The position numbers and the translations under genes were made by a program. This document shows, in pieces, positions 16,143-59,444 of a stretch of DNA of 60,539 bases. This stretch comes from Arthrobacter sp. H5 (lineage in GTDB: Bacteria; Actinomycetota; Actinomycetes; Actinomycetales; Micrococcaceae). Under the pieces are notes generated by a model. The model was not told where the DNA came from. It saw nothing but the letters and a program-made list of their open reading frames with translations, and ran no database searches. The DNA lies in NCBI RefSeq assembly GCF_000520595.1, contig NZ_KI915000.1:104845-165383 (forward strand), in the 5' to 3' direction. Every line of letters begins with the position of its first letter. Within the stretch, counting starts at the first letter, position 1.

Positions 16143-17254
16143 CCGAACTCAGCACACAGCCCACCGTCCGCCGCACCACAGCGCAGGGTGCCGTGTCAAC
16201 GGTGCTTGCCTTCGACGTCGTCGTTACCCGGGTTGAGCGGATCAGCGCCAATTTCCAGCGGATCACGTTCGGGGGGTCCTGCTTGAGCGATTTTGGCGTC
16301 CAGGGCAGCACGCTGGACCTGCGAATCAAGGTCATGATTCCCGCCTCCCATGGGAACCGCGCGGACATGGCGTCCCTCATGGACTCAGAAGGGACGGGCT
16401 GGTACCAGCGCTGGTTGGCGATGGACGCGGACGAGCGGGGCGCCATGCGCACCTACACTGTGCGCGGGGCCCGCTGCGGTGGTGAGGCGCCAGAGGTGGA
16501 CGTTGACTTTGTCATGCATTTCGACGCCGAAGGCAATGGCGGTCCCGCATCGCAATGGGCTGCCGCGGCGGCTCCAGGGGACCGTGTCTGGCTGATCGGC
16601 CCCAACGTGCAGGCTGCCACCTGTGCCACCGCCGGCTCCTATGGTGGCATTGAATGGCGCCCGGGGATGGCGCAGAATGTTCTGCTCGCCGGGGACGAAA
16701 CAGCGGTGCCTGCCATCAGTGCGATCCTTGAGTCGCTGCCCGCGGACATCAAGGGTCATGCGCTCCTTGAGGTCCCCGATGCGGAGGACTTTCAGGACAT
16801 CGCCACTGGCTCCGGTGTTGAAATAACCTGGCTGGCGCGGGGCGTGCGCCCGCAGGGGGAGTTGCTGGATGCGGCGGTGCGCCAGGCGGTCAGGCTTCCG
16901 GGCTGGGTTTCGCTCTCGTCACCATTCAGCGTTGCGTTGGGTGCGGATTCGCCGGCCGGGCTGGCGCTCGCCGCCGCAGCATCAGCCCGCACCGCGGCGG
17001 GCCCTGAGCCTGAGGAGATCGACGTCGACAAGACCATTTTGTGGGAAACGCCCCAACTGCTTGATCAAGGCGCCGTAGGAAATTCCCTGAATCCGGATCG
17101 GCCACCGGGCGCGCTCCCGTTCTACGCCTGGATTGCGGGCGAGGCAGCGATGGTGCGCGGGCTCAGACGCTATCTGGTGCGTGACGTGGGCATTGACCGC
17201 AAACAGGTTGCTTTCATGGGGTACTGGCGGCAGGGCAGGGCCGAGACCTCCTAG
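16139..17254 (+). CDS. Siderophore-interacting protein (FAD/NAD(P)H ferric-siderophore reductase)
   Basis: A 371-residue protein of the SIP/ViuB family, with an N-terminal FAD-binding beta barrel (motif RTYTVRGAR near 104) and a C-terminal NAD(P)H domain (LLAGDETAVPAISAIL, later FYAWIAGEAAMVRGLRRYLV and KQVAFMGYWRQG). It should release iron from imported ferric siderophores by reduction in the cytoplasm. The GTG overlaps the ATPase stop, so it is coupled to import and shares the DtxR-type control. Confidence 0.93.
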   Translation: MTELSTQPTVRRTTAQGAVSTVLAFDVVVTRVERISANFQRITFGGSCLSDFGVQGSTLDLRIKVMIPASHGNRADMASLMDSEGTGWYQRWLAMDADERGAMRTYTVRGARCGGEAPEVDVDFVMHFDAEGNGGPASQWAAAAAPGDRVWLIGPNVQAATCATAGSYGGIEWRPGMAQNVLLAGDETAVPAISAILESLPADIKGHALLEVPDAEDFQDIATGSGVEITWLARGVRPQGELLDAAVRQAVRLPGWVSLSSPFSVALGADSPAGLALAAAASARTAAGPEPEEIDVDKTILWETPQLLDQGAVGNSLNPDRPPGALPFYAWIAGEAAMVRGLRRYLVRDVGIDRKQVAFMGYWRQGRAETS

Positions 17255-17269
17255 TTTTTGATAACGGAA

Positions 17270-17298
17270 TTGTAACTTTTCCGTGGTTGCCCTATTCT
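17270..17298 (+). promoter_or_regulatory. Promoter upstream of the c-di-AMP riboswitch
   Basis: TTGTAA (17270-17275), a 17-bp spacer and TATTCT (17293-17298) form a good housekeeping promoter. The expected transcript start near 17305 gives a leader of about 230 nt that contains the riboswitch. Confidence 0.6.
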
Positions 17299-17344
17299 TG
17301 ATGGGAGCCATTCGCAACATCGTAGCTCCTGGCCCGCACGCCAA

Positions 17345-17518
17345 ACCCTGTCAGCGGCCCAGTCCGTCAATATTTTATGACAGGGGTGGAGGACCCACTT
17401 CCGGCAGCATGCTCGCTGCCTTGGGGTGAAGCCCGCCGCGCAATGCCGTGTCTGACGCATTGCAGAGCGGGCCGAGTCAACTCTTGCTCGAATCCGACAG
17501 CTAACTCCGCCGGCGTTA
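17345..17518 (+). ncRNA. c-di-AMP riboswitch (ydaO/yuaA class)
   Basis: The leader carries the conserved landmarks of the class in order: GGAGGACCCACTTCCGG (17388-17404), a small GCAGC/GCTGC hairpin, TTGGGGTGAAGCCCG (17421 on) and, near the 3' end, AATCCGACAGCTAACTCC (17491-17508). In actinobacteria this riboswitch precedes cell-wall hydrolase genes and normally turns them off at high c-di-AMP. Here it lies directly before an M23 peptidase. Confidence 0.88.
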
Positions 17519-17532
17519 CAGAGAGGTCTATT

Positions 17533-18270
17533 TTGTCCCAGCCGGCCAAGACCGGGCGCCGTCGTGCGTCCGGACCCGCTTCACCCGTCAAACCCGCGGG
17601 GCCGCGGCGCCGCCTGCATGCCCTGCTGGTTGCCGCCGGTGTAGTCACGGCCGGCGCTGGCGTTGTTCTGGGGGGCCTTTCACCGCTGGAGTCCGTTGAG
17701 GAATCGCGGGTAGACGCCGCTGCCTCCGCGCCCAAAGTGACCGCCGAGCCCGAGGCCGCCATGGATTTCAGCCGGGAGCGCCTGAAGGCGACGCGGAGTG
17801 AACGCGCGGCGGGTGCCGACGCCCAAACCGCCAAGTCACTGTCCAGTGGTGTGACCAAGCAGGAAGAGGCTGAGGAAGAGCAGGGACTGGGTGCCCCACT
17901 TGAGAGTCTGTCGATCGCCTCGCCGTTTGGCTACCGGGTCAACCCGTTGGGCGGGACAGGCACCGAACTGCACACAGGTACCGATTACGCCGGATCCTGC
18001 GGAACGCCGGTGTTGGCATCGGACTCGGGCACTGTGGTGGAATCGGGATGGCATGCCTACGGCGGCGGTCAGCGCATTGTGGTGGACCACGGTGAAGGCA
18101 TCAAGACCAGCTATAACCACCTCGGCAGTCTCGGAGTTTCAGTAGGGCAGGAAATCGGACGCGGAGACAATGTTGGAGCTGTAGGCACCACGGGCAATTC
18201 CACCGGCTGCCACCTGCACTTCGAAGTGATCGTTAATGACGCCCCCGTGGATCCGCAGGGACATTTGTAG
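17533..18270 (+). CDS. M23-family (LytM-type) metallopeptidase
   Basis: A 245-residue exported cell-wall hydrolase. A basic N-terminus and hydrophobic segment (about 28-50) act as signal or anchor, followed by a low-complexity Ala/Glu linker and the LytM domain from about 125. Zinc ligands and catalytic residues are visible in HTGTDYAG (H..D), YNHLG and HLHFEV. The start is TTG 17533, in frame with AGAGAGG about 6 nt upstream and directly after the riboswitch; an upstream in-frame start would lie within the aptamer. Expression is presumably lowered by c-di-AMP. Confidence 0.87.
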   Translation: MSQPAKTGRRRASGPASPVKPAGPRRRLHALLVAAGVVTAGAGVVLGGLSPLESVEESRVDAAASAPKVTAEPEAAMDFSRERLKATRSERAAGADAQTAKSLSSGVTKQEEAEEEQGLGAPLESLSIASPFGYRVNPLGGTGTELHTGTDYAGSCGTPVLASDSGTVVESGWHAYGGGQRIVVDHGEGIKTSYNHLGSLGVSVGQEIGRGDNVGAVGTTGNSTGCHLHFEVIVNDAPVDPQGHL

Positions 18271-18390
18271 GGCGGGGCCCTACCAGTACGAAGGCAGCAA
18301 AGGTGCGCAGATTGATACTGATCTGTGTTGTGCAGCCTGAGGACCTCATCAGGACACCAATTGTCCACGTCGGTATTAGCATGTTTGGTT

Positions 18391-19002
18391 ATGGGCTCTG
18401 ACACGGATGACGGCGGGATGGTCGTCTTGCCCGCAAACTATGCCGCCTGCGAAGATCTGGAAGCGATTTTCGGTGCGCGCGGCCCGGCCCGTAATTGCCA
18501 GTGCCAGCGGTACAAGCTGCAGCCACGGGAATCCTTCGCATCATTTCCAATCGAGGAACGCACCCATCGGCTACGCCGACAGGTCTCGTGCGGCCAGCCG
18601 AAATCGGAGAGCACCAGCGGGCTGGTTGCCAACCTTGATGGCGAGCCCGGCGGCTGGTGTGCGGTTGAGCAGCGCACTGCGTATGCGGGGCTGGTACGAA
18701 ACTGCCGTGTGCCCTGGCTGGACCGGGCGGAGGACAAAGCAGACCACACCGTTTGGGCGGTGACCTGCATCTTTGTTCGGGCTGAATTTCGGCGGCGGGG
18801 GGTCAGCCAGGCGCTGGTAAGTGCCGCCGTCGATTTCGCCCGTCAACGCGGCGCCCGCGCACTCGAGGGATACCCGATCATCACCACGGATGTCCTCTCC
18901 GAAGAGCTCCACGTCGGGATACGCAGCGTTTTCGCCGCAGCCGGCTTCACCGAGGTCAGCGCCCCGACGCTGCGCCGTGTGGTGATGCGGATCGACTTCT
19001 GA
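18391..19002 (+). CDS. GNAT-family N-acetyltransferase
   Basis: A 203-residue protein. The acetyl-CoA-binding region is FVRAEFRRRGVSQALVSAAV (about 129-148), with the R-x-x-G-x core, followed by a typical helix and GARALEGYPI. The N-terminal part has CQCQRY and several other cysteines, as in a common actinobacterial GNAT subgroup of unknown substrate. The ATG at 18391 has no Shine-Dalgarno sequence; GTG 18421 is possible instead. It converges on the small membrane exporter. Confidence 0.8.
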   Translation: MGSDTDDGGMVVLPANYAACEDLEAIFGARGPARNCQCQRYKLQPRESFASFPIEERTHRLRRQVSCGQPKSESTSGLVANLDGEPGGWCAVEQRTAYAGLVRNCRVPWLDRAEDKADHTVWAVTCIFVRAEFRRRGVSQALVSAAVDFARQRGARALEGYPIITTDVLSEELHVGIRSVFAAAGFTEVSAPTLRRVVMRIDF

Positions 19003-19069
19003 TCACACGTCGTGCGCGGGCCGGGCAATCCCACGCCCTCATCGGCGCCGTCCCGCCGTCGTACCGCTG

Positions 19070-19540
19070 TTAGAAGAGCAAACCCACGCCAATGGTGGCG
19101 ATGATGCCAAACGCCACTCCCCAAAGGATGATGGCTATGGTCTGCCAGAGCAGCACGGCATTCTTTTTCGCTCCGAAGGAAATCATGGCCACTGAGGTGA
19201 TGTGGGTGGGCAAGATAGTAGGGCCGAGCAGACTCACTCCTGGCACTCCGAACTTGTCGAAACTCCGGCGCAGTTTCTGGCGTTTGGGTGAGGCTGACTC
19301 ACCCGCAGGGCGCGCCACCTTGCCGCGGATATTCCCGCTGAGGCTGATGAGGAGCCACACGGCGATGACGTTGCCGACAATCGCCGCTGCGATCGCGATC
19401 GGCGGGTTGATCCCCGAGATGACCCCGATCGTGGCGGCACCTTCGGAGTCGACGAATGGTATGGCCCCAGCGACCATCACGCCGACCCACTGCAGGGGCA
19501 GCGGCAGGGATTCGGTAAAACCTTGCAGGGACTCAATCAC
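19070..19540 (-). CDS. Small multidrug-export-family membrane protein
   Basis: A 156-residue protein with four hydrophobic segments matching the Sm_multidrug_ex family: VGVMVAGAIPFVDSEGAATIG, quoted as AGAIPFVDSEGAA, then GNVIAVWLL, a basic loop, and GPTILPTHITSVAMISFGA. The family name rests on weak functional data. The start chosen is GTG 19540, with AAAAGG about 7 nt upstream; the longer reading from 19627 adds residues with no family resemblance. It diverges from the MerR-like gene. Confidence 0.75.
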   Translation of the reverse strand: MIESLQGFTESLPLPLQWVGVMVAGAIPFVDSEGAATIGVISGINPPIAIAAAIVGNVIAVWLLISLSGNIRGKVARPAGESASPKRQKLRRSFDKFGVPGVSLLGPTILPTHITSVAMISFGAKKNAVLLWQTIAIILWGVAFGIIATIGVGLLF

Positions 19541-19694
19541 TATGAGCCTTTTGAGTTGAAGGTTGGGCGTTCGAGTTGAGAAGCACCCACTACGGGTGTC
19601 CGCGATTTCCGTGGACAAATTCATCACACACCCGGCCCTTAGGTCACACTCAAGCTCTTACAAGGGTGATCTCGGTCACATGGAGTGAAAGGGC

Positions 19695-19725
19695 TTGACT
19701 GTGCCCCAGGGTCACAGTCTGAACT
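19695..19725 (+). promoter_or_regulatory. MerR-type promoter with dyad operator
   Basis: TTGACT (19695-19700) is followed by a 7-bp inverted repeat, GACTGTG (19697-19703) and CACAGTC (19713-19719), and a weak -10 at about 19720-19725. The 19-bp spacing with the dyad between the hexamers is the hallmark of promoters activated by MerR-family proteins. Confidence 0.65.
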
Positions 19726-19741
19726 GGCACAGATCGCGGCA

Positions 19742-20311
19742 ATGGGCGAGGCAGACGAGCATCCTGAGGAGGCACTGAAGGTCCTGGACGCAGAGTTGGC
19801 CGCCACCATGGACCGGCTTCAGCGGATCCGCGCGGAATTGGCGCTGATGATGCAGAGTCAACTGCCCACGGACCTGCCGCCGGAGCTGGCCTCGGTCACC
19901 GGCGATATGTCTCAGAGTGACCGGGCACTCATGGTTGTGTACGGCCGCGTCCTCAGCTCGGCTGGCATTGACGCCATGAGACAGATGCTGAAGGACTACC
20001 CCCAGGATCCTGCCGACGTCGAGCTTGACGAGCTGCCGGCGGACGCTGACGAGGATACCAAACGCGACCTGGCAGCCAGGCTCCTACCCCATGTCCTCAA
20101 AATACACAGCGCATACCCGGACATGATCACCTCCCAGCTGAAAGCTCCCGGTGGGGCCGAGCACGTGGCCGGCACCATCAACCTGGCTATGAACGACCTC
20201 TACAATGCCGCCCAACTCGATGTTTTCCGACGCGTAGGGAATGAACTCCTCAAACGTGCCGGTCAGATCGATGCCGGAGAGCCGCCACCCGCGGGCACCC
20301 GCGCGGACTAA
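19742..20311 (+). CDS. MerR-family effector domain lacking the DNA-binding domain
   Basis: A 189-residue mostly helical protein. VLDAELAATMDRLQRIRAEL (about 15-34) is a coiled-coil helix like the dimerisation helix of MerR regulators, and the rest resembles the effector domain of actinobacterial MerR proteins (TDLPPELA, MNDLYNAAQLDVFRRVG). The winged helix-turn-helix expected before it is missing: only about ten residues separate the start from the coiled coil, and a MerR-type promoter lies immediately upstream. It may be the remnant of a full regulator after deletion, or a stand-alone sensor domain. The condensation-domain gene follows after 21 nt. Confidence 0.65.
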   Translation: MGEADEHPEEALKVLDAELAATMDRLQRIRAELALMMQSQLPTDLPPELASVTGDMSQSDRALMVVYGRVLSSAGIDAMRQMLKDYPQDPADVELDELPADADEDTKRDLAARLLPHVLKIHSAYPDMITSQLKAPGGAEHVAGTINLAMNDLYNAAQLDVFRRVGNELLKRAGQIDAGEPPPAGTRAD

Positions 20312-20332
20312 AGCGGAGACGAAAGTGAGACT

Positions 20333-21667
20333 ATGCAGAACCAAATGCTGAACAACAGGACGGACCAGTATCTTCGTCCACTCGGTGCTTTCGAACGCAC
20401 TATCGACCTGTACATGCACCGTAACCCGGTTCAGCTCTCCCTGACGATGGAGCTGAACCGTGACGTCTCCGAAGAAGAGCTGGCCCGGGCGTTGCGGGAC
20501 CTCCAGAGGCTTCACCCGTTGCTTGCTGCCGACATTGATCGGACCGACCATGGCCATCTTCCGGCGGGCGCCGTGTTTCGACACTCAGCCAACGCAATAC
20601 CCGTGCGGCTTGCCCGCAACACAACCTGGACGCGCGAAGCCGCCATCGAGCAGACGGATCCGATGAAGCCTGCGCCGGGTCCGCTCGCCCGCGCCGTCCT
20701 GATCCCTGCACACAACAGGCAGGCGGGAGCCACCATCGTCATGACCTTCGCCCACCAAATCACGGACGGAAGTGACGCCTTGCGCGCCATGGAGGATCTC
20801 GCAAGTCTCCTTGCCGGTTCAACGCCCACCCCGTCGGATCTTCCTGCGGCGCAGGAAGATCTCCTCGTCAACCTGGCGCCGGCATTCACTGCCCTCGACA
20901 AGGGCGCCGCCGCAAACCAGTCCGGGGACCTGGTAGCTGACGCGATGCCGCCACAGCCGGGCGGACTGCGTCCCTTTGACGGATCGCTGCCAATCCTCCA
21001 GGCGGACGAACTCGACTCTGCCGCGACCCTGCAGCTCGTCGGGCGCTGCCGTGCCGAATCATGCACGGTGCAAGCCGCCTTGTGTGCGGCGGTGGCTTCA
21101 ATTCTGTTCGAGCCGGCAACGCGGGCCCGGGTGCGGATCAACGTGCCGATTGACCTGCGCCGCGCCGCGGACCTGGAGGACGGCGTAGTCGTTCGCTTCG
21201 GCGCGGCCGTGATCGTCCTCGACTACTTCGCCGAGGTGGGCTTCTGGGAGCTCGCGCGGAGCGCCGCCGTTCAGCTCCGGGCCGCACGTAGTTTGGGGAC
21301 GGTCCGAGCCTCCGCTCTCATGCTCGCGCAGGCCGCTCCGTCAACCGCTGATGATGCGGAGGCAGCGATGCTCGCAGCGACCACGGCCGACATCGAAATC
21401 ACCAACCTGGGAGTTGCCGACGTAACCAACGCGAGTGGCATGCGGGCGGTGTGGGGTCCAACCATGACCACGCAGGTCGCCGGGGAGCAGATCCTTGGCG
21501 TTGTCACCCACGGTGACGTGCTGCGCATGGTTAACCTCACCCTGTCGAGGAACTCGTCGGGAACATCCGCCGCGAACTGGACGCGGCATGCCGGCACCCC
21601 TATACGGGCCCACCACCAGAGACGTCACAGGGTGGGTGAGGCGAGGATCCGGGCCAGAGTGCGCTGA
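20333..21667 (+). CDS. Condensation-domain/acyltransferase-like protein with a probable C-terminal frameshift
   Basis: A 444-residue protein of the condensation/PapA-like acyltransferase superfamily. The catalytic motif appears as FAHQITDGSD: H141 with D145-G146, the first His of the usual HHxxxDG being Ala. The later NVPIDLRR resembles the structural motif of the C-terminal lobe. After codon 403 the reading turns Arg/His-rich, while the -1 frame reads VEELVGNIRRELDAAC and stops at 21639. One base has probably been lost near 21541-21543, and the intact gene would end at 21639. Substrate unknown; the gene may be regulated with the MerR-like protein before it. Confidence 0.72.
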   Translation: MQNQMLNNRTDQYLRPLGAFERTIDLYMHRNPVQLSLTMELNRDVSEEELARALRDLQRLHPLLAADIDRTDHGHLPAGAVFRHSANAIPVRLARNTTWTREAAIEQTDPMKPAPGPLARAVLIPAHNRQAGATIVMTFAHQITDGSDALRAMEDLASLLAGSTPTPSDLPAAQEDLLVNLAPAFTALDKGAAANQSGDLVADAMPPQPGGLRPFDGSLPILQADELDSAATLQLVGRCRAESCTVQAALCAAVASILFEPATRARVRINVPIDLRRAADLEDGVVVRFGAAVIVLDYFAEVGFWELARSAAVQLRAARSLGTVRASALMLAQAAPSTADDAEAAMLAATTADIEITNLGVADVTNASGMRAVWGPTMTTQVAGEQILGVVTHGDVLRMVNLTLSRNSSGTSAANWTRHAGTPIRAHHQRRHRVGEARIRARVR

Positions 21668-22536
21668 CCCGTGGCGTGCATTGCCGGGTTAGTCTCGACG
21701 TAGTACCAAACGAGGCCCATCGCCTGCTCAAAGGCCCACGCCTGCCCCCGCGACCATTCAAGATCGGTGCAGACAAGCTTGCGCCGGAACGCCTCGCGGG
21801 GAGCATGCTCAAGGAGGTGCCACGCACTCACCAGGTCCAGCGCCGGGTCAGCGGCCGCGAGACCGCCGACGTCGAGGATCCCGCTCAGCCGTCCCGCCTG
21901 AACAAGGACGTTGCCGGGAATGAGGTCCCCGTGATTCATCACATCAGGGTGTTCCCGGGGGAGGGCACGCAACTTGTTCCAGAGAGTGTGGGCACGTCCG
22001 ACGTCGATGAGACTCTCACTTCTGCGGAAGCATTCCTTCATCCACGCATCATGACGGGGAAAATCACCTCCGCGTCCTTTTCCATTGAAACGCCGCCCGC
22101 GGGTGGGGATGGAGCGGACGTCACAGATGAAGTCCGCAATATCTTCAGCGAAACCGTCCGAAACTGCCACGTTCTCAGTAGCGACCGCGCCCTCCAGCCA
22201 CGTCTGAACCGACCAGGGCATTGGGTAGCCATGGCACGGAACGCCGATGGCAACCGGCTCAGGAGTCGGAACGTGCGTGTGGCCCAGGAACTCCCGGGAC
22301 GCGAATGCCTCCTCCTCCAGGCGTTCCCGGGCTGGACCGGGTTCTTGGGGTTGCAGAGGGAACCTTGCGGTCAGTTTGCTGCCGATCCGGTAGATGGCGT
22401 TGACCGTACCCTGCGATTCGATGGGCGAGACGGGGAGGTCTTTCCACTGGGGAAACTGTTCCGCGATCAGGCCGCTGACCACCGTCAGCGGTAAATCGAG
22501 TTGATCAGCGTGCATTCTGGTGGGTTCCGCGGTCAT
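21625..22536 (-). CDS. Aminoglycoside phosphotransferase (APH)-family kinase
   Basis: A 303-residue protein of the APH/choline-kinase fold. The catalytic loop is NHGDLIPGNVLV (HxDxxxxN) and the metal-binding segment GILDVGGLAAADPALDL has D followed by VG rather than the commoner FG. Such proteins phosphorylate aminoglycosides, macrolides, homoserine or sugars, so drug resistance should not be assumed. The ATG overlaps the stop of the CDF transporter gene, so the two are co-transcribed. Confidence 0.85.
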   Translation of the reverse strand: MTAEPTRMHADQLDLPLTVVSGLIAEQFPQWKDLPVSPIESQGTVNAIYRIGSKLTARFPLQPQEPGPARERLEEEAFASREFLGHTHVPTPEPVAIGVPCHGYPMPWSVQTWLEGAVATENVAVSDGFAEDIADFICDVRSIPTRGRRFNGKGRGGDFPRHDAWMKECFRRSESLIDVGRAHTLWNKLRALPREHPDVMNHGDLIPGNVLVQAGRLSGILDVGGLAAADPALDLVSAWHLLEHAPREAFRRKLVCTDLEWSRGQAWAFEQAMGLVWYYVETNPAMHATGQRTLARILASPTL

Positions 22537-23222
22537 TGAGTCTCAGCAGCGTGCCCGGGTTCTTCCGCAGCCTCGTGCACGGCTGCGTTGGGCGCGCAGC
22601 AGGAGTCACCTTTCCAGGCCGCTACGCCTTCCTTCACCGCGACCGCAGCGATCGCCAGAGCTGCCAGCGGGTCGGCCCAGGCCCAGCCCAGGGTGCTGTT
22701 GAGGACAAGCCCCACCAGCAACACGGCGGAGAGGTAGGAACACAGCAGCGTCTGTTTGGAATCGGCCACCGCGGAGTGTGATCCCAGTTCCCGGCCAGCC
22801 CGCCGCTGTGCCCAGGAGAGCACAGGCATGACGGCCAGGCTGACCGCGGCAAGCGTGATTCCTACGGGGGAGTGGTCCGGCTGCCCGGCGCCGAACAGAC
22901 CTCGCAGGGCGTCAATCGTGACGAACAGCGCCAAACCGAAGAAGGAAAACGCGATCAGCCGCAGCGCTGTTCTCTCCCGGCGCTCCGGATCGGGGGCCGC
23001 GAACTGCCACGCCACTGCAGCGGCGGACAACACTTCAACAATCGAATCCAGTCCAAACGCAATCAGGGCCGACGACGACGCAATGGTCCCGGCGGCAAGT
23101 GCAACAACTGCCTCAATGACGTTGTAGATGATTGTCGCCGCGACAAAGAGCCGGATCCGGCGGGACAGGATCGCTTGCCGTTCCGGACCCAGGTGAGCGG
23201 TACGCACCGCGTGTGAATTCAT
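22533..23222 (-). CDS. Cation diffusion facilitator (CDF) family transporter
   Basis: A 229-residue membrane protein with about five to six transmembrane helices. The zinc-site helices of the family are recognisable: SSALIAFGLDSIVEVLSA (family HxxxD-like position as FGLDS) and GSHSAVADSKQT. It lacks the long cytoplasmic C-terminal domain, and the C-terminus has CC and His/Glu residues (DSCCAPNAAVHE) that could bind metal. ATG 23222 is preferred to TTG 23228. Likely an exporter of divalent cations. Confidence 0.82.
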   Translation of the reverse strand: MNSHAVRTAHLGPERQAILSRRIRLFVAATIIYNVIEAVVALAAGTIASSSALIAFGLDSIVEVLSAAAVAWQFAAPDPERRERTALRLIAFSFFGLALFVTIDALRGLFGAGQPDHSPVGITLAAVSLAVMPVLSWAQRRAGRELGSHSAVADSKQTLLCSYLSAVLLVGLVLNSTLGWAWADPLAALAIAAVAVKEGVAAWKGDSCCAPNAAVHEAAEEPGHAAETQ

Positions 23223-23308
23223 CGGCAACAGCTTTCAGATTTCGGGGCCAGGTCTGCCGGGCCGATCCCATGGTACACGGTTGCGTGTATCGAATTCGGA
23301 CCTGGAAC

Positions 23309-23350
23309 GACGACGGCGCGCACCCACTTGGCTGGGTGCGCGCCGTCGTC
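23309..23350 (-). terminator. Strong intrinsic terminator
   Basis: Arms 23309-23326 and 23333-23350 form a perfect 18-bp GC-rich stem with a 6-nt loop. It lies between the stop of the universal stress gene and the next gene on the same strand. No long T-run follows, as is common in high-GC actinobacteria. Confidence 0.8.
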
Positions 23351-23392
23351 CTTGGCTGGTGCTCTCTTGGTCAATCACCGGTTGTGGAGGGC

Positions 23393-23788
23393 TTACGCCA
23401 GCTTCACCGCCAGCACGTTGCAACGCGCACCGAGCAGGATTGTCTGCGCCGTGGAATCGATGATCAGCTTTCCAACGGGTGTGCGGTGCCGCAGTCCGAT
23501 GACAATGAGCTCGGCACCGCTCTTTTCGGCCGCGTCCAGCACATCCTCGGCAGCTGTGTCTTTCGACGTGCCGTGGTGCACTGCGTACTCAACACCGGAG
23601 GACCTGAGGGTCTGCTCCAGCCTCGCCATGTCAGCGTCATCGGCATAGCCGGGATCAACCAGCCGGTCAGCCCTGGTGGTATTGACCACCACCAGGGAGG
23701 CTCCACGGCTCCGCGCTTCGTCGACGGCAGCTGACGCAGCGCCGTCGCCCAGTTCGTTGGGAACGTAGCCCAGCACTATGACGCTCAT
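23393..23788 (-). CDS. Universal stress protein (UspA family)
   Basis: A 131-residue single-domain Usp protein. It starts MSVIVLGYVPNE and has a degenerate nucleotide-binding loop, with GLRHRTPVGKLIIDSTAQ near 100-117 in place of the canonical GxxGxxxxxxGS. Its ATG overlaps the proposed original stop of the tctA remnant, the usual arrangement in tctCBA-usp operons of related bacteria. Its original promoter probably lay upstream of the lost genes, so present expression is uncertain. Confidence 0.85.
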   Translation of the reverse strand: MSVIVLGYVPNELGDGAASAAVDEARSRGASLVVVNTTRADRLVDPGYADDADMARLEQTLRSSGVEYAVHHGTSKDTAAEDVLDAAEKSGAELIVIGLRHRTPVGKLIIDSTAQTILLGARCNVLAVKLA

Positions 23789-24640
23789 CGGCCGCGCTCC
23801 TCGGCTCCGCGGGAACCGTCTCTGTTTCCATCGCCCGCTGACGGCGCCTCAACCAGAAGAACAGCGCAAAGATGATGATGAGGACAATGTAGATGCCTGC
23901 TGCGATCGGGGTGCTGACCAGGGCAACCGGGTCACCCTGCGAGATCGCCAGGGCGCGGCGCAGCTGATCCTTGAAGATCGGCCCCAGGATGATGCCCACC
24001 ACCAACGGGGAAATGGGGTAGCCGTACCGGCGCATGAAAAAGCCCAGTATGCCAATGACCAGCAGGATAAACACGTCCACAGGGGTGAACTTGACTGAGA
24101 ATGCACCCATTGCGGCGAAGACCAGGATCCCCGCATAGAGGTAGGGTCGCGGAATCTGCAGAATTTTCACCCAGATCCCTACGAGGGGCAGGTTCAGCAC
24201 CAGCAGCATGAGGTTGCCGACGTAGAGGTTTGCAATCAGAGCCCATACCAGCGCGCCCTCAACTTCGAACAAGAGCGGGCCGGCCTGGATGTTGTAGCGC
24301 TGGAACGCTACCAGCATCATTGCGGCTGTCGCCGTCGTCGGAATACCCAGGGTCAGCAGCGGCACCAGGACACCGGCGGCTGCCGCATTGTTTGCGGACT
24401 CCGGTCCGGCAACCCCTTCGATGGCGCCCTTGCCAAACTGCTTCTTGCGCTCGCCCTTGGCAAGCTTCCTTTCAGACGCATAGGAAAGGAAGGTCGCGAC
24501 GTCGGCGCCGCCGGCGGGAATGGTTCCCACCGGGAATCCGATGAACGTTCCGCGGAGCCAGGGCTTCCAGGAGCGCCGCCAATCGTCACGCTTCATCCAA
24601 GTGGTCCAGTTACCGGTCACCGGAATGACCTTGACCGGAC
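23785..24640 (-). pseudogene. Truncated tripartite tricarboxylate transporter permease (TctA remnant)
   Basis: About 270 residues matching the C-terminal half of TctA (normally about 500): [40 protein letters not shown] and [14 protein letters not shown] are family motifs, followed by several membrane helices. The first half is missing; homology stops near 24640, where a regulator fragment begins on the other strand. Near the 3' end one C appears lost (CCC at 23811-23813): restoring it gives PRGAEERGR and a stop at 23785-23787 overlapping the usp start. As read, the frame runs on to 23667. TctB, TctC and the sensor kinase are absent. Confidence 0.82.
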
Positions 24641-24644
24641 CATG

Positions 24645-25203
24645 GCGAAGACGCGAAGCTGCCGGACATCTCAGGTATCGAAGTTCTCCGTGCGGCACGG
24701 AACCTGCCGGGCGATCCCGTGGACGTTATTGCGATCACGGCTGCCCGGGAGCTCGAAACGTGCGCGCAGCGATGGCGGGCGGAGTGCTGCACTATCTGGT
24801 CAAGCCCTTCAATTCAAGGGTGCTGCTGCAGCGGCTCGATGATTACGTTGGGCACCGTTCGAGCATTCTGCAGCACAGCTCGGGGGAAGGGGGGCCCCTC
24901 GACCAGGACCGAATCGACCGTTTGCTTGCCCCTCCTCCCGGCTCACGCTCATTGGCGTCCGTGCAGGTTCAGCAGCAGCTGCCCAAGGGGTTGTCCGGGC
25001 CCACGCTTGAGGCCATCGTGGGGGACCTCCGCTCGTCCACCGTGGGAGCTTCCGCGTCGGAGGTAGCCGGAAGGCTGGGCCTGGCGCGGGTGAGCGCCCG
25101 ACGTTACCTTGAATTCCTGGTGGCACAGGGCAGCGCACGAATCACTCCGAAGTACGGCGCGGCGGGCCGTCCGGAAAAGTTCTACCTCTGGACGGGAAAC
25201 TAG
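24645..25203 (+). pseudogene. Truncated and frameshifted CitB/DcuR-type response regulator
   Basis: The reading starts mid-receiver domain at LPDISGIEVLRAARNLPG, just after the phospho-acceptor Asp, so about the first 55 residues are lost. A one-base loss at 24760-24761 (acg-tgc, expected acg-gtgc) shifts the frame; downstream GGVLHYLVKPFNSRVLLQRL carries the conserved Lys-Pro. A helix-turn-helix follows (ASEVAGRLGLARVSARRYLE), ending in KYGAAGRPEKFYLW. This regulator class usually controls dicarboxylate or tricarboxylate uptake, matching the TctA remnant beside it. Not expected to be functional. Confidence 0.82.
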
Positions 25204-26162
25204 GGTTCCGGGTTGGTCAGGATCGCCGGATCCTTTTTCCCGTATGGCATCTTGAGCTTCAGCGAGCGGGCATCAACGCGGAAGGCCATGTGCGTCCCTT
25301 TGCCCAGCGGGTCGCCGTCAAGCTGGATTTCCAGCGGAGAGTCGAGTTGCACTTCCGCTTCCTTGCACTGGAAGTATTCCAGCGACGGGTCTTTGCTTTT
25401 TCCTCGTGTGAATAGATTGCCTAGCACCCCAAACCATCCGAGCTTTCCGCTCGGCGCGATGGTCATGAGGTCCAGCAGGCCGTCGTCGATTTTGGCACCG
25501 GGGAAAATCTCCAGCCCGCCCTGGACCTTCCCGCAGTTGCCTCCCATCACGCTTCGGAGCCTGCGCGTGAACTGTTCGCCGCCGTCGAGCGTGATTCGCG
25601 CCTTGGCGGGCTTGCCCTGAAGGTTTCGGAGCCCGGCGTCGACGTAGGCCAGCCAGCCCACCTTGTCTTTCAGATCATCCCGGGTATCCGCCATGATCGA
25701 CGCATCAAAACCAAGGCCCGCCATCACCAGGAAGACATGGGCATCCTGTGCCCGGTCCACCGTCACATAGACAACGTCAATGTCCCGTTCAGTACCCAAC
25801 AGCGCCGCCTTCGCGGCTTCCTCCGGATTGTCGACGGCGATGCCGACGTTGCGCGCGAGCAGATTTCCCGTACCGAGGGGGACAAGTCCCAGCGCGGTCC
25901 CCTTGCCCGCCAGCTGCTCTGCCACGCATCGGACGGTGCCGTCACCACCGGCAGCGATAACGACGTCGACACCTGCCTTGAGTGCCTCCTGCGTCTGTCC
26001 CCTACCCGGGTCGTCTTCAGTGGTTTCGAGGCACAGCACCTCGTCCCAGCCTTCGCTCTCACACAGCGCTGAGACGATGTCCCGGATGTCGCCGCCGGTG
26101 TCCTTGATCGGGTTGACGATGAGGGCGGCGCGTTTGCGTCCGGTATCTGAGGAGGTGGCCAT
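25200..26162 (-). CDS. Diacylglycerol kinase-family lipid kinase
   Basis: A 320-residue cytoplasmic enzyme. The DAGK catalytic domain includes VVIAAGGDGTVRCVAEQL (about 69-86, GGDGT nucleotide-binding loop) and LGLVPLGTGNLLARN. A C-terminal beta domain holds VRAT-like metal/lipid-binding residues (LEIQLDGDPLGKG). It phosphorylates diacylglycerol or a related lipid. Its stop overlaps the stop of the decayed response regulator on the other strand. Confidence 0.9.
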   Translation of the reverse strand: MATSSDTGRKRAALIVNPIKDTGGDIRDIVSALCESEGWDEVLCLETTEDDPGRGQTQEALKAGVDVVIAAGGDGTVRCVAEQLAGKGTALGLVPLGTGNLLARNVGIAVDNPEEAAKAALLGTERDIDVVYVTVDRAQDAHVFLVMAGLGFDASIMADTRDDLKDKVGWLAYVDAGLRNLQGKPAKARITLDGGEQFTRRLRSVMGGNCGKVQGGLEIFPGAKIDDGLLDLMTIAPSGKLGWFGVLGNLFTRGKSKDPSLEYFQCKEAEVQLDSPLEIQLDGDPLGKGTHMAFRVDARSLKLKMPYGKKDPAILTNPEP

Positions 26163-26266
26163 GGGATCCTTAGGAAGTTCGGACGTTTCCCACGAGCCTA
26201 TCCGAGCGCCGGCGGATAGTGAGACTGGTTATGCTGGATTTCCCAGCAATCCATCAAGGAGGAACC

Positions 26267-26467
26267 GTGGACAAGGATCAGGAAGAACCTCAGGACAAGG
26301 ATCCGGAAACCATCAACCCCAAAGGCGGATCGCCCACGTTTCCCAACCTTCCGTCGTCGCACCCTACCGGCGACACGAGGGAGTTTGGCGGCTCATTTGA
26401 TGAGACGGAGCACCACTCCCAGAATGACCTCGCCCATCAGGAAAAAGACACAGGGAAGGACGCCTAG
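26267..26467 (+). CDS. Small acidic hypothetical protein
   Basis: A 66-residue hydrophilic protein rich in Asp, Glu, Pro, His and Gly with no hydrophobic segment, probably disordered. It was accepted because GTG 26267 has a strong AAGGAGGA site 3-5 nt upstream and because it ends 5 nt before the SGNH hydrolase start, suggesting co-translation. No family is recognised. Confidence 0.6.
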   Translation: MDKDQEEPQDKDPETINPKGGSPTFPNLPSSHPTGDTREFGGSFDETEHHSQNDLAHQEKDTGKDA

Positions 26468-26472
26468 AAAAC

Positions 26473-27261
26473 GTGGAATTCTCTCAGCGGTATGTGGCCC
26501 TCGGCGACTCCTTCACTGAAGGGGTAGGCGATTGGGATCCGTCCAGTCCCAATGGCGTCCGCGGATGGGCGGACCGTGTGGCGCAGCAGCTGATCCTCGC
26601 GGAGCCGTCCTGGGGGTATGCAAACCTGGCGATCCGCGGACGAAAGTTGCGCCAGATCATGGCAGAGCAGGTAGACGGAGCGCTGAAACTCGAGCCGACC
26701 CTGGTCACCATCTATGCCGGAGCCAATGACATCCTGCGTCCGCGCATTGACATTGATGCGCTGATGGCAGAGTACGACGCCGGTATCGCCAAACTTGTTG
26801 CGTCCGGTGCCGCGGTGGTCATGTTTACCGGCTTCGACTCGTCGGGCTCTGCGGTGTTCGGCCGGACGCGTGGCCGCACTGCGATTTACAACGAGCTGGT
26901 GCGGGAAATAGCAGACAGGCACGGCGCGGATATTGTGGACTACTGGCGGCTGAGGGAGTTCCAGAACTGGGATTACTGGGATACGGACCGCCTGCACATG
27001 GCGTCCTCGGGCCACACCCTGATGGCCATCAGGGTGTTGGAGGTGCTCAAGTCCTCGCATTCGATCGACCTGCCGGAACTCGAAACCCGGCCCGCGCTGT
27101 CGCGGCTCAACCAGCTCCGCGCCGACGCCAAGTGGGCGCGCGATTACCTCACGCCCTGGGTTGGGCGGCGGCTGAGGGGCATCTCCTCGGGAGACACGAT
27201 TACCGCAAAGTATCCCCAGCCGGTCCGCCCGGACTGGTCCAGCAGTTCTGTACGCAGGTGA
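26473..27261 (+). CDS. SGNH/GDSL-family hydrolase
   Basis: A 262-residue esterase-like protein. Block I YVALGDSFTEGVGD carries the nucleophile Ser, block III is YAGANDI (G-x-N-D), and block V is DRLHMASSGH with the catalytic Asp/His. No signal peptide is seen, so it is probably cytoplasmic. The GTG at 26473 is close behind the small acidic ORF. Substrate unknown; the family includes esterases, lipases and acetylxylan esterases. Confidence 0.9.
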   Translation: MEFSQRYVALGDSFTEGVGDWDPSSPNGVRGWADRVAQQLILAEPSWGYANLAIRGRKLRQIMAEQVDGALKLEPTLVTIYAGANDILRPRIDIDALMAEYDAGIAKLVASGAAVVMFTGFDSSGSAVFGRTRGRTAIYNELVREIADRHGADIVDYWRLREFQNWDYWDTDRLHMASSGHTLMAIRVLEVLKSSHSIDLPELETRPALSRLNQLRADAKWARDYLTPWVGRRLRGISSGDTITAKYPQPVRPDWSSSSVRR

Positions 27262-59147: not shown

Positions 59148-59267
59148 GGTGTCTCCTTCGATTGGGGATGCCTGTTCCTAGCCTAGCGCGGTGGGGCGGG
59201 CGGAACGACGCCGTCATGAATGCACCGGGATGGACCGCAGGTGTAGAGTTGGAGGCGCTAATAAATA

Positions 59268-59377
59268 CGACAGGGGAGCGCTGTCAAAGCATGCACCATT
59301 GCTTTGATGAGGCGCTGAGAGTGCGGACCACCGCAGACCCTCGAACCTGATCCGGCTAGTACCGGCGAAGGGAGTCG
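59268..59377 (+). ncRNA. TPP riboswitch (THI element)
   Basis: The conserved TPP aptamer landmarks are present: GGGGAGC (59274-59280), GCGCTGAGAGTGCGG (59312 on), ACCCTCGAACCTGATCCGG (59337 on) and CTAGTACCGGCGAAGGGAG (59355-59373), closed by a CGAC/GTCG P1 stem. It lies about 70 nt before the YkoE-like gene and is expected to turn thiamine-precursor uptake off when thiamine pyrophosphate is plentiful. Confidence 0.95.
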
Positions 59378-59444
59378 AGTTCTCTTAGGTGCCCGGCGGC
59401 CTGCTGGAGCACCTCCCCTCCTGTACCTCAGGAGGAAATTTCTT

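Follow-up and report, generated by a model that had tools for sequence, protein, structure and literature searches.

How does one half of a tricarboxylate transporter gene come to lie against one half of the gene for its own regulator? The question is raised by a 60,539-nt stretch of the genome of the soil bacterium Arthrobacter sp. H5 (the window; positions 104845-165383 of contig C28 in our genome set, in which H5 is G000), where the 3' part of tctA, on the minus strand, abuts the 3' part of a CitB/DpiA-type regulator gene, on the plus strand. The initial annotation read this arrangement as the product of an internal deletion, followed by decay of both remnants, and named an assembly join as the alternative. 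The genome is a draft of 104 contigs (4.33 Mb), rated 99.84% complete with a contamination of 2.53%.

Table 1. Features at and around the junction (positions in the window)
Feature	Position	Strand	Basis
Stretch between the M23-peptidase and DAGK genes, 6,929 bp	18271..25199		Gene comparison with relatives
Intact usp (universal stress protein gene), next to tctA on its downstream side	23393..23788	minus	Pfam Usp, 1.9e-14
tctA remnant, C-terminal part plus frame-shifted tail before usp	23789..24659	minus	Pfam TctA, 5.9e-73
Deletion junction	24659..24660		Matches on both sides in 17 relatives; 24659 is the base common to both inferred old ends
Regulator remnant, end of receiver plus linker plus C-terminal HTH (residues 59-244)	24660..25203	plus	Matches to relatives
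Diacylglycerol-kinase (DAGK) family gene, convergent with the regulator remnant	25200..26162	minus	Pfam DAGK_cat, 1.9e-21; ORF coordinates

Two gene remnants and their junction

Matches to relatives on both sides confirmed that the C-terminal half of TctA meets the C-terminal part of the regulator, and placed the junction at 24659|24660, slightly to the right of the range of about 24640-24655 given at first. The left-hand matches stop at 24659 in 15 of 18 relatives' loci (the other three stop at 24630, 24656 and 24657), the right-hand matches begin at 24659 or 24660 in 17/17, and the inferred old ends overlap by one base. These old ends were deduced from relatives with about 78% DNA identity, H5 being distant from all compared genomes, and for five loci (L035, L042, L045, L047 and L049) the breakpoints were extended by hand 1-29 bases past the BLAST ends. 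The DNA match to relative G022, which served for residue numbering, was far above chance level for both sides (E = 2.6e-309 for usp plus tctA and 2.3e-88 for the regulator).

The tctA remnant is retained from residue 223 of 519 and shares 90-92% amino-acid identity with six relatives. Its 841-base piece covers only positions 223-422 of the 423 in the TctA profile (PF01970), as compared with 1-422 in G022, and a whole PF01970 domain, the mark of a working TctA membrane component, is absent from the window. The tail of the remnant, a poorly conserved region, is out of frame with the G022 stop and 19 bases shorter than in six clade relatives (counted by eye). The adjoining usp is 78-81% identical at the amino-acid level to the tctA-adjoining usp of the six nearest relatives. 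Directly downstream of usp lies a strong, terminator-like inverted repeat (23306-23353; 21-nt arms, 95%), short matches to which recur elsewhere in the H5 genome and in relatives.

On the other side, the regulator is retained from residue 59 of 244, just past aspartate 56 of the receiver, the presumed phospho-acceptor in this family, which is therefore lost; the receiver domain with its aspartate, by which a CitB/DpiA-type regulator is recognized, is thus lacking. G022 yielded a match to the Response_reg profile, whereas the piece 24763-25200 of the window, the sole piece scanned, yielded none. A frameshift lies between 24760 and 24763, as 24659-24760 and 24763-25200 match relatives in different frames, and from 24763 the frame is open through to the stop. 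The piece from 24763 matches the DpiA-like HTH_64 profile with E = 6.9e-4. Its 20.2 bits fall short of the cut-off (27), and so do the 20.9 bits of the intact G022 regulator. A PADLOC scan of the regulator piece returned 0 families. The regulator remnant (plus strand) and the DAGK gene (minus strand) share a four-base palindrome at 25200-25203, in which their stop codons overlap. Of the one-base losses proposed earlier, the one at 24760-24761 thus corresponds to a real frameshift; the tctA tail is likewise out of frame, the exact spot proposed there, 23811-23813, being unconfirmable in so poorly conserved a region.

The intact locus in relatives and the missing segment

The block of regulator, kinase, tctC, tctB and tctA predicted from the window was found in relatives in the predicted order and orientation. 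A DNA search matched 28 of 38 genomes and, in the genus query, 31 of its 38 genomes, H5 counted in both. Both halves are matched in 28 of the 37 other genus genomes, at separate places, and a match spanning the join occurs in H5 alone. Relatives in which the truncated halves stand side by side, which would have pointed away from a deletion, were looked for, and the halves are adjacent in 0/37.

All five genes, each in one frame, form an unbroken block in 25 of 29 same-genus loci; in G007 and G013 the kinase match shows a single stop, very close to its end, which was taken as the kinase's own. The remaining four comprise three broken loci (G009, G010 and G047) and one interrupted by a contig end (G014). 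In 25/29 loci usp adjoins tctA; within the DNA examined, none was found near tctA in G005, G008, G009 and G010.

The positions corresponding to the two sides of the break are 4,125-4,231 bp apart in 16/17 relatives and 3,119 bp apart in G010 (locus L039 of G014, with its regulator on another contig, was excluded from this measurement). In G022 the stretch between them contains tctB, tctC and the gene for an sCache-type kinase, together with the 5' parts of tctA and the regulator gene. These comparisons, which the initial annotation had proposed as a check, support an internal deletion that removed the kinase gene, tctC, tctB and the 5' parts of the flanking genes, about 4.15 kb in relatives' terms, and it is the intact locus in relatives together with a measurable missing segment that marks the H5 locus as a probable deletion pseudogene. 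The missing stretch, in its G022 version, matches the H5 genome only on contig C2, at a paralogous TctCBA-like set (44/36/57%). At the locus itself tctB and tctC are absent, and TctA, TctB and TctC, which together define a TTT transporter, are not encoded together there.

Two further loci came up in these comparisons. In G004, locus L052 shares its srpbcc, arsR and ribD neighbours with G022, and its usp-tct-kinase-regulator block is divergent (usp 50%, tctA 61%, kinase 34%), which may reflect an in-place replacement. L102 (WNZI01000006.1), titled 'Vibrio cholerae strain 35D', bears an Arthrobacter-type tct locus, and its title looks wrong.

Chromosomal place and origin of the junction

The neighbourhood of the remnants differs from that of the intact locus. 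Besides usp and the tct remnant, the 6,929 bp that separate the M23-peptidase gene from the DAGK gene hold genes for a GNAT protein, a small export protein, a PapA-like protein, an APH-family protein and a cation-efflux protein. An M23 peptidase homologue, 49-56% identical to that of the window, lies near DAGK in 6/9 relatives' loci, with 9-152 bp between the stop codons; none was found beside DAGK in the other three (G022, G002 and G023). In the DNA examined around relatives' tct loci (58 loci, some genomes being represented twice) there was no counterpart of the window's dagk, czc, aph or m23 genes, and homologues of the G022 tct neighbours sit on contigs C83, C38, C2 and C63 of H5. The difference in place indicates that the module was relocated as well as cut, before, during or after the deletion; the earlier account of the locus, sound as to the deletion, was in this respect incomplete. 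Two riboswitches also lie in the window. One, a c-di-AMP riboswitch (17346-17530), precedes the M23 peptidase ORF or overlaps its start; the other, a TPP riboswitch (59262-59390), lies near the window end.

The history that we favour, with high confidence, starts from a complete usp-tctA-tctB-tctC / kinase-regulator block in the ancestral H5 lineage, which would have encoded TTT-family solute uptake and a CitA/CitB-type two-component system. A single deletion, about 4.15 kb in size, would then have taken the 5' part of tctA, the whole of tctB, tctC and the kinase gene, and the 5' part of the regulator gene; the leftover ends would have joined via their one-base overlap, and the module would also have moved. 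So short an overlap is more suggestive of end joining than of recombination between repeats. A repeat scan of 17000-26500 placed none at the breakpoint among those listed (20 of the 41 families of direct repeats and 25 of the 45 inverted pairs), and a 20-nt direct repeat of 90% identity (24188/24963) lies inside the two retained halves and hence did not mediate the join. A Ku domain was found in all six genomes searched (H5 and five relatives), which makes end joining possible in H5, and we infer that the join was made in this way. With the tctC-kinase promoter region deleted, neither half is likely to yield a working protein.

Two or more separate events, such as relocation of already separate pieces or an insertion followed by an excision, could also have made the junction, and both the new neighbourhood and the spread of usual-neighbour homologues over four other contigs would fit such a history. 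However, from usp to the regulator stop the halves are ordered and oriented as in the intact module and, gap aside, reach just as far, and we consider a composite origin unlikely.

The single deletion is also much better supported than an assembly join, in which the halves truly lie apart, or the missing 4.15 kb lies between them in the chromosome. The draft state and contamination level of the genome could allow such an error, and runs of 100 N occur in two examined stretches on other H5 contigs. Against this, the window contains no N at all, the missing stretch occurs nowhere else in a genome rated nearly complete, a one-base overlap of the inferred old ends leaves an assembler nothing to join by, the frameshift in each half fits genes that were already broken, and GC content is steady over the junction (0.617-0.631 in the 1-kb windows overlapping it). 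We therefore regard a false join as quite improbable. In a search of the H5 genome against itself each half was found once at full identity, the only further match (71%) being to a TctA paralogue, and a megablast of 23000-26300 against plasmids gave zero matches.

Preservation of the remnants and comparison with other loci

Both remnants are well kept. Against the six nearest relatives, the mean non-synonymous difference of the tctA remnant is 0.057, as compared with 0.020 within that group of relatives; the corresponding pairs of values are 0.129 and 0.066 for usp, 0.185 and 0.097 for the downstream regulator piece and, with four of the six relatives, 0.138 and 0.075 for dagk. Sites invariant in relatives are changed at 6/202 positions in the tctA remnant, 1/91 in the regulator pieces (0/22 plus 1/69) and 3/72 in the intact usp; the remnants do not differ significantly from usp (Fisher, p = 0.44 and 0.70), and the per-relative change counts are biased low, as most relatives have a close sister and H5 has none. 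We accordingly rejected relaxed selection as a clock for the break. Clear decay is confined to the two frameshifts: the later decay claimed at first holds for these and does not extend to an excess of amino-acid change over intact neighbours. Such preservation implies either that the break is recent relative to the divergence of H5 or, for the regulator piece, that something still holds it. A tree of the tct pieces places H5 beside a six-member clade with support of 87/83, below the starred level, and the dagk plus gdsl tree does not resolve its placement. Horizontal import of a ready-made remnant was rejected, since the remnant groups, with modest support, beside the nearest clade.

Breaks of other kinds occur at the same locus in several relatives, a point missing from the earlier account. 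In G009 (A. agilis UMCV2; L178) the 3' part of tctA and usp are missing; G010 (L177) lacks the 5' parts of the kinase gene and tctC and carries frameshifts; G047 has a frameshift in the kinase gene; and in Arthrobacter sp. H20 only the C-terminal part of the regulator is left. All four loci are orthologous to the H5 tct locus, each broken differently from it. G009 and G010 are single-contig assemblies, so breakage there is not a draft-assembly effect. By the genus query, 29/38 genomes have an orthologue of the regulator with some 63% identity or above, in one stretch in 28 of them (that of G043 came in two stretches in one search and one in another); G004 holds a 45% relative at a comparable locus, and only the C-terminal part is found in H5 and G042, the latter very probably H20 (record NZ_KI914717.1). 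No regulator above 45% was found in G001, G011, G016, G017, G045 or G048, of which G016, G045 and G048 are less than 90% complete. This uptake locus has thus been repeatedly lost or broken within one Arthrobacter group.

The least ordinary point is the conservation of a receiver-less, DNA-binding regulator half in both H5 and H20, which recent loss explains equally well. The H5 remnant might still be produced as a small receiver-less DNA-binding protein, as its frame is open from 24763 to the stop with a single invariant site changed there, and the independent H20 copy (L116:10022-10393, from about residue 115) keeps 51/51 covered invariant sites and directly follows a co-oriented HPr gene. 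Yet recent loss predicts the same conservation, the old promoter is gone, visual inspection upstream of 24772 showed no clear start accompanied by a ribosome-binding site, and a frame long enough for a receiver is open in 79 of 80 named loci, H20 being the only one without it; production of such a protein is very doubtful. It is just as doubtful that deletions twice freed this DNA-binding half, in H5 and in H20, and that the one in H20, at the least, still serves as a regulator independent of phosphorylation.

The H5 locus, then, is best read as an ordinary deletion pseudogene in a relocated uptake module, and raises no new question of mechanism. It offers a clean example of how an operon with divergent outer genes leaves a transporter-regulator scar upon deletion. 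Gene callers may annotate the remnants as a 'TctA' of 343 aa and a 'regulator' of 227 aa, leading to misleading predictions of citrate-type uptake. Elsewhere in the H5 genome there are two full TctA paralogues, on C2 and C12, and three CitMHS matches over the cut-off, the best with 61.8 bits, as compared with best matches of 150-186 bits in G010, G051, G042 and G009. Within the collection of papers searched, none combined the tripartite tricarboxylate transporter, Arthrobacter and a pseudogene.

Deletion pseudogenes generally consist of two truncated genes joined with minimal overlap, with frameshifts on both sides. The H5 scar is distinguished from these only by its partners, a transporter and its own regulator, which were brought together because both flank the operon.

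The intact locus of relatives has a counterpart in Corynebacterium glutamicum, where CitAB is reported to control citH and tctCBA (PMC3353115), and either transporter is enough for growth on citrate. Akin to this system, the intact Arthrobacter relatives carry genes for a CitA/CitB-family kinase and regulator together with those for a TctCBA (TTT) transporter. In C. glutamicum, however, citAB adjoins citH and the system is functional, with citrate tested as substrate (PMC3353115), whereas in the Arthrobacter relatives the kinase and regulator genes face tctCBA, the genes for a putative tricarboxylate transporter, and in H5 the block is broken.
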